From an uncultured Ruminococcus sp. (lineage in GTDB: Bacteria > Bacillota > Clostridia > Oscillospirales > Acutalibacteraceae): a stretch of DNA of 64,000 nucleotides. The notes under the pieces were generated by a model, which saw only the letters and a program-made list of their open reading frames with translations, was not told the DNA's origin and searched no databases. Positions 7,200-58,728 of the stretch are shown here, piece after piece (position 1 is the stretch's first letter; each line of letters begins with the position of its first letter). Location of the stretch: contig CADBZY010000011.1 in assembly GCA_902799245.1 (NCBI GenBank), positions 1 to 64,000 of the forward strand, in the 5' to 3' direction. The position numbers were made by a program, and so were the translations under genes.

Positions 7200-7691
7200 T
7201 TACATTTCCACTTCTGTACCGAATCCATCAGGATTTGTGGTGGGAGTGGTTGCCTTTGTTGTAGTAGTTGTTGTTGTGGCTTTGGTTGTGGTAGTGGCCT
7301 GTGTCGTTGTACTGTTAGCAGCCTTTGAAGTCGTGTTGTTGTTTGCTTTTTTAGTTGTGGTGTTGTTATTTGCATTTTTAGTTGTGGTAGCTGACTTGTT
7401 GGAAGATGAAGTACTTAATGCGGTCGTCGACTCAGTATTGGAAGTAGTTGAATCGGTAGTTTCGTCGTCATCGCCTTCATCAAAGACAATTCCGGATTGT
7501 TCCATAATCTTCTTATGCTCCTCGGCTAATTTCTCGTTCTGCTCCTTCAGCTCGTCAATCTGTTTTTGAAGATTTGCTATTTCTTCATCATAATTCTTTG
7601 AGGAATTACAGCTGCAAAGGAATGCCAAATTTATTACCAGACTGAATGAAATGGTGCCTACAATAATTCTTTTAAATACCTTATTTTTCAT
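7200..7691 (-). CDS. Thr/Asn-rich lipoprotein with DGFGTEVEM tail
   Basis: This 163-residue exported protein begins with a basic n-region and hydrophobic stretch ending in the lipobox-like FLCSC. A predicted coiled coil follows (EEIANLQKQIDELKEQ), then an acidic patch. About 90 residues of Thr, Asn and Ser come next with runs of threonine, probably a wall-spanning linker. The last residues, NPDGFGTEVEM, nearly repeat the tail of the next gene upstream. I do not recognise a function. The conserved tail after a variable linker suggests a recognition or modification signal. The gene is 36 nt downstream of its small partner and probably in the same transcript. Confidence 0.75.
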   Translation of the reverse strand: MKNKVFKRIIVGTISFSLVINLAFLCSCNSSKNYDEEIANLQKQIDELKEQNEKLAEEHKKIMEQSGIVFDEGDDDETTDSTTSNTESTTALSTSSSNKSATTTKNANNNTTTKKANNNTTSKAANSTTTQATTTTKATTTTTTTKATTPTTNPDGFGTEVEM

Positions 7692-28567: not shown

Positions 28568-30688
28568 TTAGTTTCCGTCAGCTTCCGTCTGCTCTGTCTC
28601 TGCCGGGTTTTCCTTGCTGATGAATTTATAGATATGCTTGTAGTAATCCTTGTCAAGCAGCTGCTTGGAATAGGTCTGCTTTGCTCTCACAACCTTATTC
28701 ATAGCGCTGACATAACTGGATTTTTCCTCCTCGGAAAGCGTGCAGTTTGCGCTGGGAGTGAATTTCTTTGCGGAAGCGTTGTATTCGCCCTGTGTGCTGA
28801 TCCACGACCAGCCGTTGACCTTGATCAAAGCAAAGTGATCGCCGTCAGCCAGAATATCGCTGCCCATAAGCAGTCTCGAATCATACTCCAGTCCGAAAAG
28901 GTTGGAGAGAGTGGGGAGAATATCAATAGCGGAACAAGGCTTGTCCACAATGACCGGCTCGGTCATGGATGCGCTCCAGAGCAGGAAGCCGTTGCGGTAA
29001 AGATCAAAGTTATTGCGGATGCCGTCCTTCGGAATGTTGTAGAGAGTGGCGAGATCACCGTCGCTGAGGGCATAGGGATAATGATCCTCAGCAATAGCAA
29101 ATACGGTGTCTTCCAGTTTGCCCGCTTCTTCAAGCGCCTTAATCAAAACCTGCAGCATCAGCTCAACTTCATACTGGCAGGCGTTATAAGCCTGAATGCC
29201 CTCAGACTGACTCAGGAGTCTTTCCGGCAGATCCTTTTTGTGACGGCTTGCCATGGAGTTGCCGCTGAAGGTGTAGTTGGCGTGACCGCTGACGCTCATA
29301 TAATACGCGTGGAAAGGATGATCAAGGTTTACATAATCCTTGGAGCTGACCTCTGCCATTTCCTTGTCAGAGCGCGGCCAGCCGTTATACTGGAGGGTAA
29401 GGCCGTGATTGGTGGCTTTCCAGGTGTAACCGAAATTCGGGTGCGACTTGTCGCGTCCGTAGTATGTATAAGAATTGTTGTGATAAGCCAGCGTGGTGTA
29501 ACCGAGCTTTTTAAACTGATTGCCCAAGGCCAGAGGCTGGTATTTGGAACCGCTCAGCTTCAGGCAGTTGGCTGTGGTGTAGAAGTTGCCGGTCATACAG
29601 GAATATTCACCGGTTGCGGTACTTCCGCCCCACACGGAATTGTAGAAGTTTTTGAAAACAAAGCCCTCGGTGGACATCTTGTAAAGCGTAGGAGTAAACT
29701 CAGGATCAATGATCTTATCAGAGAAGCCTTCCAGTGTGATAAAGATAAGATTCTTTCCCTTGAACATGCCCGTGTATTTGCTCTTCTGCGTGGGCTGAAC
29801 CGTCTTGAAATACTTGTCCATATTTTTCAGCGGTGTCGAGCCGGCGTTTTTCGCAGCCTTGTCAAAGTCAATGTTCATCACATTGTAGCCGTACTCGATT
29901 TCCTGTTCACCTTCGCCTTCATCGTCTTTTTCTCCGGGAAGAACGGGTGTAGAAGGATTGTCGTTGTCAAATGTTTCCTCCGGCGCACCGAACATCAACT
30001 GCTTAATGTCAAGACGCGTGGTATTGAATATGCCGTAATACTGAAAACTGGTATCAAGGTCATTCTGAAGATATGTATAGTAATAATACGGTGAATAGTC
30101 ATTCGTCTCGTTTTTGGAGCTGTTGATTGTCACCAGCATCGGCAAATAGAAAACGAGAAATGCCACAAAAGAAATGCCCGCATAAGGGTAATTGTAATCC
30201 AGATCATCCGTGACATAGTATTTTCCTGTAAAGCACATAATGATCAAAGGAATAAACAGAGCCACAATGACATACCATACATTAAAGATAGCAACAATCG
30301 ATTCCCGCCAGAACTGCGTGACGTCCTTGGCCTGTCCGAGCGTCTGCCACGAGAAGAAGGTGTGAAAGTTGCCGTAATAGGTCACATGGAACGAAAACCA
30401 TACCGCAAGCACAGCCAGCACCGTTTTGAAAAAGATTCTGCGCGGCTTGCCGGGAATGAGCATAGCGACTGCACTCAGCAGAAAGCCCATCGCAAGCGAC
30501 AAAAACAGCATATATTTATATTTTTCGTCAAATACACCGCCGAATAAGTTTGTCTTTGCCACGGTTTCCATGTACAAAAGAGATACCGGCAAGAATAAAA
30601 TGCCGATGAGATCCCTTAAGTAGGTGGAACGGTCAACGAAATCGATCAGCTTGTCTAATCTCTCTTCCAAATCAATTGCCTCCTGCAT
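28568..30688 (-). CDS. LtaS-like membrane sulfatase (lipoteichoic acid synthase family)
   Basis: This 706-residue protein has about five N-terminal membrane helices (residues 20-190). A linker with an acidic patch (EKDDEGEGEQEIEYG) leads into an extracytoplasmic sulfatase-fold domain. Metal-site blocks are visible: NLIFITLEGFSDK, WGGSTATGEYSCMTG around the nucleophile, AYHNNSYTYYGRD and FAIAEDHYPY. Family members transfer glycerol phosphate from phosphatidylglycerol to lipoteichoic acid or other envelope polymers. The exact polymer is unknown. It has its own promoter and lies next to the radical SAM operon but is separately transcribed. Confidence 0.88.
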   Translation of the reverse strand: MQEAIDLEERLDKLIDFVDRSTYLRDLIGILFLPVSLLYMETVAKTNLFGGVFDEKYKYMLFLSLAMGFLLSAVAMLIPGKPRRIFFKTVLAVLAVWFSFHVTYYGNFHTFFSWQTLGQAKDVTQFWRESIVAIFNVWYVIVALFIPLIIMCFTGKYYVTDDLDYNYPYAGISFVAFLVFYLPMLVTINSSKNETNDYSPYYYYTYLQNDLDTSFQYYGIFNTTRLDIKQLMFGAPEETFDNDNPSTPVLPGEKDDEGEGEQEIEYGYNVMNIDFDKAAKNAGSTPLKNMDKYFKTVQPTQKSKYTGMFKGKNLIFITLEGFSDKIIDPEFTPTLYKMSTEGFVFKNFYNSVWGGSTATGEYSCMTGNFYTTANCLKLSGSKYQPLALGNQFKKLGYTTLAYHNNSYTYYGRDKSHPNFGYTWKATNHGLTLQYNGWPRSDKEMAEVSSKDYVNLDHPFHAYYMSVSGHANYTFSGNSMASRHKKDLPERLLSQSEGIQAYNACQYEVELMLQVLIKALEEAGKLEDTVFAIAEDHYPYALSDGDLATLYNIPKDGIRNNFDLYRNGFLLWSASMTEPVIVDKPCSAIDILPTLSNLFGLEYDSRLLMGSDILADGDHFALIKVNGWSWISTQGEYNASAKKFTPSANCTLSEEEKSSYVSAMNKVVRAKQTYSKQLLDKDYYKHIYKFISKENPAETEQTEADGN

Positions 30689-30824: not shown

Positions 30825-31892
30825 TTATTTTGATTGCAAAATATAACGGTCGGAAAAATGCTTTTCATCCGCCGCAAGCATCTTCCTCGCCATCTCGTCG
30901 GCGCGTGTGATGAGAATTTTCTGATAGGCGCACTGTTCGCCGCTGACCTGCGACATATCGCCGCACTGCTGGTAATTCAGGCAGGCGCAGTCATTAACGC
31001 AGCGCTTCTGCATCGCGCAGCCCTCGCAGAAGGCAGGTTTTTTCAGGCTGCTCTGGTAGATGGACTCTCTCCGCGACTGATCGATTCCCTCAGAAACACT
31101 TCCCATGCGGTATTCCGACACACCGCCGAACTGAATACAGGGGTAAACATCGCCGTCCCAGTCAATATAGGGCTTGCGCTTGCCGAGTTGGCAGACATGG
31201 CACTTCCTGTCCTTGGTGATGGCAAGAATCTTCTCCTCAAACGGGTTGAAATAAATGTCTTCTCCCTTTTTGAATTTTTCCACAATCAGATTCCCGAGCA
31301 TTCCGAGCTGTTCGGAAAGAATATTCATGCTGTCCTCGTCCCAGCCGGCGCAGGGCCGGGAATCAATGGCAAGATTGAAGCGCCTGACTCCCAAGTCGAT
31401 GAGGTGCTTCATGGAATTGTACACGTTTCCCGCCGTTTCCGGCGTGGTCGTCGCCATAATGAACGCCCCGGGGCGGTATCGCAGCAGAAGCCGGAGCTTT
31501 TCATCCAGTTCGGCCAGGCAATCCTTGCCGCCCTGGTACAGACGGTTGACACGGCTCATCAGCCCGTCGTGCGACATGGCGATGTCAATTTTTTCCCGAC
31601 GCGCAAACGCCAGAAATTCCTCGTCGAGAAGAAGTCCGTTGGTCGTCATGTTCCAGTTGAATTTCACTCCGCTGAACAGCTTGGAATATTCCACACATCT
31701 GTAAATCAGCGGCTTGCAGAGCAGCGGTTCACCGCCGAAGAAGGAAACGCCGACCGACATGCCGCCGTCCTTTACAGCCATGTCGATGGCCCGCAGCGCC
31801 GTTTCTTCGGTCATGTACACATTTTCATGTGTTTCAAAGCAGTATTTGCAGCGAAGATTGCACTGCTTTGTAAGAATTAGTGAGATATTCAT
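30825..31892 (-). CDS. Radical SAM/SPASM peptide-modifying enzyme (predicted)
   Basis: This 355-residue enzyme begins with the radical SAM cluster motif CX3CX2C at Cys11, Cys15 and Cys18 (TKQCNLRCKYCFET), followed by the SAM-binding VSFFGGEPLL. The last 120 residues form a SPASM domain with many cysteines (CHVCQLGKRKPYIDWDGD, CIQF, CEGCAMQKRCVNDCACLN, then two more). Such enzymes install cross-links or epimers in ribosomal peptides, or make formylglycine in sulfatases. It is the third gene of an operon, 4 nt after the stop of a small lipobox peptide, with a second paralogous peptide upstream. This makes peptide maturation the best guess. No separate leader-binding RRE domain is visible. Confidence 0.88.
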   Translation of the reverse strand: MNISLILTKQCNLRCKYCFETHENVYMTEETALRAIDMAVKDGGMSVGVSFFGGEPLLCKPLIYRCVEYSKLFSGVKFNWNMTTNGLLLDEEFLAFARREKIDIAMSHDGLMSRVNRLYQGGKDCLAELDEKLRLLLRYRPGAFIMATTTPETAGNVYNSMKHLIDLGVRRFNLAIDSRPCAGWDEDSMNILSEQLGMLGNLIVEKFKKGEDIYFNPFEEKILAITKDRKCHVCQLGKRKPYIDWDGDVYPCIQFGGVSEYRMGSVSEGIDQSRRESIYQSSLKKPAFCEGCAMQKRCVNDCACLNYQQCGDMSQVSGEQCAYQKILITRADEMARKMLAADEKHFSDRYILQSK

Positions 31893-31896
31893 TTTT

Positions 31897-32223
31897 TTAG
31901 TCGCCTTCTGACGGCTCCACCGTCATAAATCCGTCATAATCATTGCCCGAGCTTTCATCCTCCACAGGAAAATACTGCTCCTCGCCCATGATGGAAAGAC
32001 CGTCGTCGGACGAAATATCCGACGGTGAAACGTCAGAGTCCGACACGGGCGGTTCGTACACCATATTACCCATAATTTTTTGATCCGGCTCGGGTCTGTT
32101 GCGATGACAGGCTGTCAGGCTGCCGCAAAGCAGCAGCGCCGAAGCAGCGGCGGTCATGCGCTTCACAACGTCGCTGCTGGAATAGCCGTCGTCATACGCT
32201 TCTACCTTTCTTTTTTCCATCAT
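31897..32223 (-). CDS. Lipobox-containing small protein, candidate radical SAM substrate A
   Basis: This 108-residue protein (ATG at 32223 or 32220 after GGAGG) has an unusual acidic/aromatic leader, VEAYDDGYSSSDVVKRM. A hydrophobic stretch follows that ends in the lipobox LTAC near residue 39. The exported part is acidic and Ser/Asp-rich, with SDSDVSPSDISSDDG and near its end YDGFMTVEP. Leader, lipobox and the SPSD block are all shared with the next gene upstream. It could be a lipoprotein modified by the radical SAM enzyme before or after export. Function is unknown; the substrate role rests on operon position and paralogy. Confidence 0.75.
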   Translation of the reverse strand: MMEKRKVEAYDDGYSSSDVVKRMTAAASALLLCGSLTACHRNRPEPDQKIMGNMVYEPPVSDSDVSPSDISSDDGLSIMGEEQYFPVEDESSGNDYDGFMTVEPSEGD

Positions 32224-32245
32224 TCAATCCTCCTTTGCGAATCAA

Positions 32246-32527
32246 TCAGCCGTTATCGGAGGAGACATAAGCCACATCGCCGTCGAGCGTAAACATTTCA
32301 TCCTCCGATGAGCAGGCATCCGACGGTGAAAGATCCGATTCCGAAACGCTCTCCACAGACATATAACCGCTGTACTGCGGCTCACATAAACCGGCACATC
32401 CTGTCAATCCTCCCGCCATCACAGCAGCGGCAGCAGTAACGGCAATGGCTTTCATTAATGTAACCGAATAAACCTCGTCATAGCCAGCTTCGTAACTTTC
32501 AATTTTCTGTAATTTCATTTTTTCCAT
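32246..32527 (-). CDS. Lipobox-containing small protein, candidate radical SAM substrate B
   Basis: This 93-residue paralog starts at an ATG after AAGGAG and opens the operon. Its leader IESYEAGYDEVYSVTLMKA aligns with the other peptide as E-x-Y-x-x-G-Y. A hydrophobic stretch ends in the lipobox LTGC. The exported part has a second Cys four residues on, YSGYMSVES and SESDLSPSDACSSED. The 22-nt gap to substrate A and the matching architecture show duplication within the operon. A conserved leader in front of the signal hydrophobic core is not usual for simple lipoproteins, which is why a maturation system is suspected. Confidence 0.75.
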   Translation of the reverse strand: MEKMKLQKIESYEAGYDEVYSVTLMKAIAVTAAAAVMAGGLTGCAGLCEPQYSGYMSVESVSESDLSPSDACSSEDEMFTLDGDVAYVSSDNG

Positions 32528-32996: not shown

Positions 32997-33029
32997 TCCC
33001 CGGCGCCTTTGACAGAAAAACGCCGGGGA
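32997..33029 (-). terminator. Terminator of the transcarboxylase-like operon
   Basis: TCCCCGGCG (32997-33005) pairs perfectly with CGCCGGGGA (33021-33029). On the minus strand GATTTTTG follows. Confidence 0.8.
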
Positions 33030-58062: not shown

Positions 58063-58728
58063 TCAACCGGCAGACGTTTTGGCGACAGAGGCTTTTCGTG
58101 AATCGTATTCCTTAAAGAAACTGTCAACGCTTTCGGAAGCATCAGCCGCATTGCCTGTGATCGCGCTGTATAGTGCATTGGTCATGACAGGTCTCCACTT
58201 GCCGTCCTTATATCGGAACTCCACCTTGATCACATCTGTCACCAGACAGTCGGAAAGGTCGCCGCTCAGCTGATTACTGAGCGAAGCCTTGACTGCTTCC
58301 GATATTTTCTTATCATTCTTGTAGGAACCGTGGTTCCATTCATAGTCCGTTGTTTCCTTCATCACGCCGGAAAGCACCTTATTCATAAGCAGACTCATTT
58401 CAAGATGCGTAATCTTGACCGACTGCCATGCGCCTGTGCCGTTGATTTTGGGCTCCGTAATCACACGCATATCGATGTTCTCGGCAAGCTTTGTAAGCAC
58501 AATGCCTTCTACGCTGTCATCTAAATTGCTGGAGCTTACTTCTATGTAATTGCCGGTCAGTTCAATAGCGGATCTGTAATCGCCGTCAGAAAGATAATCG
58601 CAAAATTCAGCCCAAGCCACCGTCGGATTGTTATCCTCATGAACAAACATCTTGGAGCAGGCAGTAATCAGTAAGAAAATGCAAATGGTAGATAAGATAA
58701 GTAATGTTATCTTAAATCTTGTTATCAT
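58063..58728 (-). CDS. Putative lipoprotein, function unknown
   Basis: This 221-residue protein has a lipoprotein signal peptide ending LLITACSK, with the acylated Cys at about 24. The exported domain is mixed alpha/beta with NNPTVAWAEFCDYLSDGDYR near its start and a C-terminal region (VEFRYKDGKWRPVMTNALYS) that looks like an NTF2/DUF4878-type fold. No family is certain. It is the first of three same-strand envelope proteins; gaps of about 60 and 220 nt separate them. Confidence 0.7.
   Translation of the reverse strand: MITRFKITLLILSTICIFLLITACSKMFVHEDNNPTVAWAEFCDYLSDGDYRSAIELTGNYIEVSSSNLDDSVEGIVLTKLAENIDMRVITEPKINGTGAWQSVKITHLEMSLLMNKVLSGVMKETTDYEWNHGSYKNDKKISEAVKASLSNQLSGDLSDCLVTDVIKVEFRYKDGKWRPVMTNALYSAITGNAADASESVDSFFKEYDSRKASVAKTSAG

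Follow-up and report, generated by a model that had tools for sequence, protein, structure and literature searches.

We describe here a radical SAM/SPASM enzyme and the small lipobox proteins encoded beside it, which, as far as sequence comparison can tell, apparently constitute a real, conserved and uncatalogued radical-SAM/lipoprotein modification system. They were found in a window of 64,000 nucleotides, the whole stretch of DNA analysed, from an uncultured Ruminococcus sp. (contig CADBZY010000011.1). In our opinion, it is likely that the enzyme is a peptide- or protein-modifying maturase and that the lipobox proteins are its substrates. More tentatively, and with confidence that stops a little short of even, we suggest that modified lipopeptides and lipoproteins anchored to the cell surface would form a class that is undescribed and widespread in gut Clostridia; in it, a radical SAM enzyme would carry out a new, Cys-independent chemistry at a Gly-centred motif and the lipoprotein signal peptidase would double as leader peptidase, a dedicated protease and transporter being unneeded.

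The genes, which we call pepA, pepB and rSAM, form one minus-strand operon with intergenic gaps of 22 nt and then 4 nt (Table 1), exactly the tight arrangement of two small paralogs and a 355-residue enzyme that the first-pass annotation had reported. Ribosome-binding sites (AAAGGAG) are clear for pepA and pepB, and a terminator-like hairpin lies at 32997-33029, directly past the end of the upstream gene; no Rfam model matched within the window. Compared with the locus L014, whose enzyme is 90% identical, dN/dS is 0.29 for pepA, 0.11 for pepB and 0.09 for rSAM. These values indicate purifying selection, hence all three behave as real genes.

Table 1. Features of the pepA-pepB-rSAM locus, in coordinates of the window
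Feature	Position	Strand	Basis or remark
pepA, 93-aa lipobox precursor (leader, lipoprotein signal peptide, acidic core)	32246..32527	-	sequence, homologue alignment, dN/dS
pepA leader E-S-Y-E-A-G-Y, residues 10-16	32480..32500	-	Y12, G15 and Y16 invariant in 19 homologues
pepA lipobox L-T-G-C (Cys44), after hydrophobic stretch	32396..32407	-	Cys44 invariant in 19 homologues
pepA degenerate core copy Y-S-G-Y-M-S-V	32354..32374	-	homologues have YDGYM/YDGNM there
pepA core motif L-D-G-D-V-A-Y	32267..32287	-	motif scan; Gly83 nearly invariant
pepB, 108-aa lipobox precursor, pepA paralogue	31897..32223	-	sequence, homologue alignment, dN/dS
pepB leader E-A-Y-D-D-G-Y, residues 8-14	32182..32202	-	homologue alignment
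pepB lipobox L-T-A-C (Cys39)	32107..32118	-	homologue alignment
pepB core motif I-M-G-N-M-V-Y	32056..32076	-	motif scan
pepB variant core I-M-G-E-E-Q-Y	31972..31992	-	sequence, homologue alignment
pepB variant core Y-D-G-F-M-T-V	31918..31938	-	sequence, homologue alignment
rSAM, 355-aa radical SAM/SPASM enzyme, proposed maturase	30825..31892	-	Pfam, NCBIfam, alignment, tree
Radical SAM cluster motif C11-x3-C15-x2-C18	31839..31862	-	invariant in 14 aligned family members
SPASM auxiliary-cluster region, Cys231/234 to Cys321	30930..31202	-	Pfam, family alignment
LtaS-like extracellular sulfatase-fold protein, 137 nt downstream of rSAM	28568..30688	-	neighbour in one genus subclade only; membership uncertain

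Both small proteins indeed contain everything that had been ascribed to them: the leader E-x-Y-x-x-G-Y (within IESYEAGY in pepA and VEAYDDGY in pepB), the lipobox (LTGC and LTAC, respectively), a common SPSD, and the YxGxMxVE block (YSGYMSVE and YDGFMTVE). The 19 homologues aligned, short peptides of the genus, all retain the leader's Y, G and Y as well as the lipobox Cys. A hydrophobic stretch followed by L-[TSA]-[GAS]-C with an invariant Cys is what one expects of a bacterial lipoprotein, and lipidation is predicted on this basis. Two other lipobox proteins of the window, at 58063-58728 and 7200-7691, have short plain n-regions. No NCBIfam model matched pepB, the one match to pepA is unrelated and at chance level, and none of the partner proteins tested rose above the cut-off of any Pfam or NCBIfam model. 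With a modifying enzyme encoded next to small precursors whose leader and core are conserved, the operon answers, at the level of sequence, to the general description of a RiPP locus.

The enzyme belongs to the radical SAM/SPASM superfamily, both Radical_SAM (PF04055, 1e-14) and SPASM (PF13186, 1e-4) being above the Pfam cut-off. The CX3CX2C motif at residue 11 and the Cys-rich C-terminus seen earlier resolve into C11-x3-C15-x2-C18 and a complete SPASM cysteine set (C234, G247-x4-C252, C289-x2-C292-x5-C298-x3-C302, C321), mostly invariant or nearly so among relatives 32-84% identical to the enzyme. Its best NCBIfam matches are peptide maturases, PapB first, followed by nif11, SCIFF and QhpD-type models, none near its cut-off. 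The family was bounded by a similarity cut-off; in a quick maximum-likelihood search its 38 rows form a single clade (SH-aLRT 98), separate from SCIFF-type and distant enzymes. Matches from Selenomonadaceae at 23-31% identity (L020-L033), considered as possible members, fell outside this clade. A search of the phylum with the PapB model (NF047865) returned mostly SCIFF-type maturases, which are longer (~460 aa) and served as controls and outgroup, and nothing above the PapB cut-off. An AlphaFold2 model of the enzyme built from 7 close homologues was poor (pLDDT 60) and was kept out of fold searches. Since the radical SAM domain begins at residue 6, the enzyme has no space for an N-terminal RRE; no RRE domain was found in it, and the operon has no gene for an RRE, a protease or a dedicated transporter. 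This speaks against a maturase.

In the host genus the enzyme is a stable trait, being present in all 18 genomes (rumen Ruminococcus-like MAGs), and elsewhere it is scattered: 10 of 300 genomes of the family, 7 of 394 of the order and 16 of 391 of the class carry it, in about 15 genera of Clostridia besides the host's. Strong lipopeptide matches occur in the same 18 genus genomes, and 17 of these have them no more than a few hundred nt from the enzyme. The operon is split in G1034 (L060, L077), which keeps both enzyme and lipopeptide: the enzyme and its LtaS-like neighbour adjoin argJ, and the lipopeptide gene, with one in-frame TGA in the aligned stretch, has kept its place next to the decarboxylase-subunit gene, its neighbour in the window too.

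Homologues consistently lacking the peptides were named at the outset as a finding that would speak against the proposal, and this is not what we see. In nearly all of the 46 family loci, one to three genes adjoining the enzyme encode lipobox partners. A mechanical partner scan was positive at 39 of these 46 loci versus 3 of 30 SCIFF-type control loci; when the three positive controls were inspected, none resembled a lipoprotein. The description as two paralogous peptides holds for the window, but the system is wider, its partners extending from 66-aa peptides up to 320-aa lipoproteins; beyond the genus they are quite unlike in sequence and of the same build. Short partners (66-130 aa) are found in genus g333 (L048-L052) and at L013 and L035, and long ones, lipoproteins of roughly 200-320 aa with a conserved C-terminal domain, at L009-L011, L034, L036, L037, L042 and L044-L046. 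The lipoprotein gene comes after the enzyme at L008, lies ~700 nt upstream at L041 (a profile match), and has just its C-terminal part on the contig at L012 and L043. L053 has no clear partner at the locus, which counts against a maturase. The enzyme there (genome G719) is divergent and N-terminally broken, and a downstream ORF ~1 kb from the enzyme start encodes a membrane segment followed by GGEVMLSGAVEVVS, which is core-motif-like, with no lipobox.

Peptides occurring without the enzyme would likewise have spoken against the proposal. A profile of the long lipoproteins matched 8 of the 391 class genomes, all of them among the 16 enzyme-positive ones and 5 of them contributors of sequences to the profile; the weight of the test thus rests on the 375 enzyme-negative genomes, where long-type lipoproteins gave 0 matches. 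Additional unlinked copies are present in two genomes that also carry the enzyme, G825 and G750.

The leader is kept while the remainder of the protein varies from short repeats to 200-320-aa lipoproteins and the hybrid at L036. The long lipoproteins have V-K-x-Y-x-x-P-x-Y-P and then L-L-K-x-L-P-x-R-W ahead of the hydrophobic stretch, and the g333 peptides have N-Y-K-K-P-L-Y-A. Beyond the lipobox, the sequence of the short proteins is acidic and of low complexity and contains a Gly-centred motif [LIY]-x-G-[DNE]-[VM]-x-[YVI], repeated and conserved, which the first-pass annotation missed. Scanning with the pattern [LIVMYF].G[DENG][VMAIL].[VYILC] gave 23 copies in 12 proteins of the genus versus 0.3 expected from shuffling, and 19 copies in 13 proteins of other lineages versus 0.5 expected (maximum 4 in 2000 shuffles); the motif was chosen by inspection of both sets ahead of this test, hence shuffling shows a non-compositional motif, not a blind prediction. 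A single 117-aa protein (L049) contains LAGDVRL, LEGEATV, LDGDVIV and LDGGVSI. Among the looser copies are the GAVPYSQPD-type repeats at L013, and at L036 the Gly-centred repeats YLDGDVIM, MLEGEPAL and PLAGAPPI are fused to the long lipoprotein domain. Two facts weigh against a maturase here: the strict motif is unmatched in L015B, L052 and L036, where it is degenerate, and the long lipoproteins have, if anything, only a loose G-x-[VMI]-x-[VI]. The operons at L014 and L015 contain a third gene (82 aa, at -245 from the enzyme, and 66 aa, at -220, respectively) with a YxxGY leader, one motif (FYGDIIY and ICGNMSC) and no signal peptide, so that leader and motif can pair without export. Beyond leader and motif, these two proteins have no obvious likeness to each other.

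The original suggestion that the enzyme acts on would-be lipoproteins with a RiPP-type leader thus has strong support, from the joint presence of enzyme and lipoproteins across many genera and from a leader and core conserved amid divergence. We infer the following order of events. The enzyme would recognise the pre-signal leader (E-x-Y-x-x-G-Y or its counterparts) on the nascent cytoplasmic precursor and modify one or more of the Gly-centred core motifs downstream of the signal peptide. Sec would then export the precursor and Lgt would lipidate the lipobox Cys. Because the precursors would be exported as lipoproteins, the cut by LspA would take off the leader along with the signal peptide, and the end product would be a modified, membrane-anchored surface lipopeptide. 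Export might outrun modification, and the sequence of the core motif could reflect a folding or binding role instead.

As to the chemistry, the core has neither a constant Cys nor a constant aromatic residue, hence the reaction shared by the family is unlikely to form a thioether or a cyclophane, and the modification is probably not a thioether. This bears directly on the reading that the enzyme is a PapB-, SCIFF- or QhpD-like thioether-forming (ranthipeptide) maturase with the lipopeptides as ordinary Cys-thioether substrates. The ranking of NCBIfam models would fit it, as would the best solved relative, 5wgg (2e-28), presumably the SCIFF maturase CteB, and there are cysteines near some cores (DACSSED; FGCMSV in long forms). 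Nevertheless, the enzyme scores 178.4 bits on the PapB model versus a cut-off of 340, and the other family members 190-222. Other Bacillota SCIFF-type maturases outscore it there at ~290 bits, so its similarity to PapB appears generic; it is also below the cut-off for a SCIFF maturase. A non-lipobox Cys lies within 10 residues of only 17 of 37 motifs in the genus and 6 of 19 in other lineages, and in several precursors the lipobox Cys is the sole one, which is not the pairing of core Cys donors with acceptors that defines a ranthipeptide. We consider this reading improbable. For the chemistry of the proposed maturase, our guess, by analogy with TvgB acting on Val, would be C-alpha epimerisation or a change to an aliphatic side chain.

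Slightly less probable still, in our judgement, is that a metabolic radical SAM enzyme has the lipoproteins as its partners, sensors or regulators rather than its substrates, with leader and core serving as binding or topology signals. Modification of the lipoproteins has been proposed from sequence alone, the long members have a conserved C-terminal domain, and at one locus (L008, genome G112, 225-1495) genes for a BlaI-like repressor and a BlaR1/M56-like peptidase, named by eye, lie directly upstream of the enzyme; all this would suit such a role. On the contrary, the enzyme is expected in the cytosol and the lipoproteins outside the cell, which would leave only the time before export for contact; the number of partners changes from 1 to 3 with leader and core constant, and the third genes of L014 and L015 have leader and core with no signal peptide.

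That the enzyme serves the downstream LtaS-like protein as its anaerobic sulfatase maturase, the lipoproteins being incidental, is very improbable, even though anSME belongs to the SPASM enzymes and a sulfatase-fold gene follows the enzyme in the window, in about half of the genus and in G1034, where the lipopeptide gene is elsewhere: the anSME models reach 52-76 bits against cut-offs of 349-441 (TIGR03942: 75.9 vs 349), a score that excludes the enzyme from the clade whose involvement had been raised as a possible refutation, the gene does not adjoin the enzyme in other genus members or the other genera examined, and the protein has no C/S-x-P-x-R site, the only near-match, SMASR, lying at residue 478, a long way from the GGSTATGE segment, which we take to be the place of the Thr nucleophile in LtaS-type enzymes. 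Within the genus, one subclade has LtaS-like proteins, often as 2-3 tandem paralogues, directly behind the enzyme; in other members they are encoded elsewhere.

If the maturase reading is true, radical SAM chemistry would tailor resident surface lipoproteins, beyond secreted natural products, across many families of gut and rumen Clostridia, and a RiPP-type leader would be linked to the pathway that serves lipoproteins in general, a combination described as rare in bacterial RiPPs (PMC12452194). The system would also be compact to test, with one enzyme and one peptide, and its repeated Cys-poor motif is at odds with the thioether chemistry of the nearest catalogued maturases.

The pairing of a radical SAM enzyme with a lipoprotein has a precedent in TIGR04133 (rSAM_w_lipo), where the enzyme is likewise encoded alongside a putative lipoprotein; we take TIGR04134 to be the lipoprotein partner family and the system to come from Bacteroidetes. 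The enzyme scores 34.5 bits on TIGR04133 versus a cut-off of 425, pepA and pepB did not emerge as its partner lipoprotein in the NCBIfam search, and the leader and Gly-centred repeats are, as far as tested, specific to the present set, whose peptides match no NCBIfam model. Two further radical SAM genes of the host genome (G000:C23:3448-4464 and G000:C7:104995-106017) are much nearer to TIGR04133, at 281 and 272 bits (same cut-off). The comparison with FibroRumin (TIGR04136) made in the first-pass annotation, a radical SAM maturase name tied to Ruminococcus, turned out to be inapplicable, the partial match giving 36.2 bits versus 400. PapB, the closest NCBIfam model by score, is similar in length and SPASM layout; it links Cys to Asp/Glu (PMC9413430), whereas Cys is not constant in the present core. 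TvgB converts Val to cyclopropylglycine in the TVGG repeats of TvgA (PMC9062424), and so offers a radical SAM enzyme working on a repeated Cys-free Gly/Val motif; that system differs in having its own peptidase/transporter and oxidase genes, with a lipobox not described.

In the open-access literature, with most subscription journals lying outside this scope, we found no description of the enzyme/lipopeptide family, and the pairing of lipoproteins with the present radical SAM clade, a pre-signal leader and a Gly-centred core is unmatched in what was searched. A lipoprotein-type RiPP precursor is not a wholly new idea. Sec signal peptides are described as rare in bacterial RiPP precursors, bufferins being the main exception; a lipoprotein signal peptide is present in ~16% of Buf2 bufferins, and some bufferin precursors are very long (PMC12452194). 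Bufferins are thus a precedent for RiPP precursors exported by Sec, in part as lipoproteins. They are, however, modified by an MNIO enzyme with a partner protein and have Cys-based cores, whereas the present system relies on a radical SAM enzyme, its leader is a separate element ahead of the signal peptide, and it lacks a partner protein.
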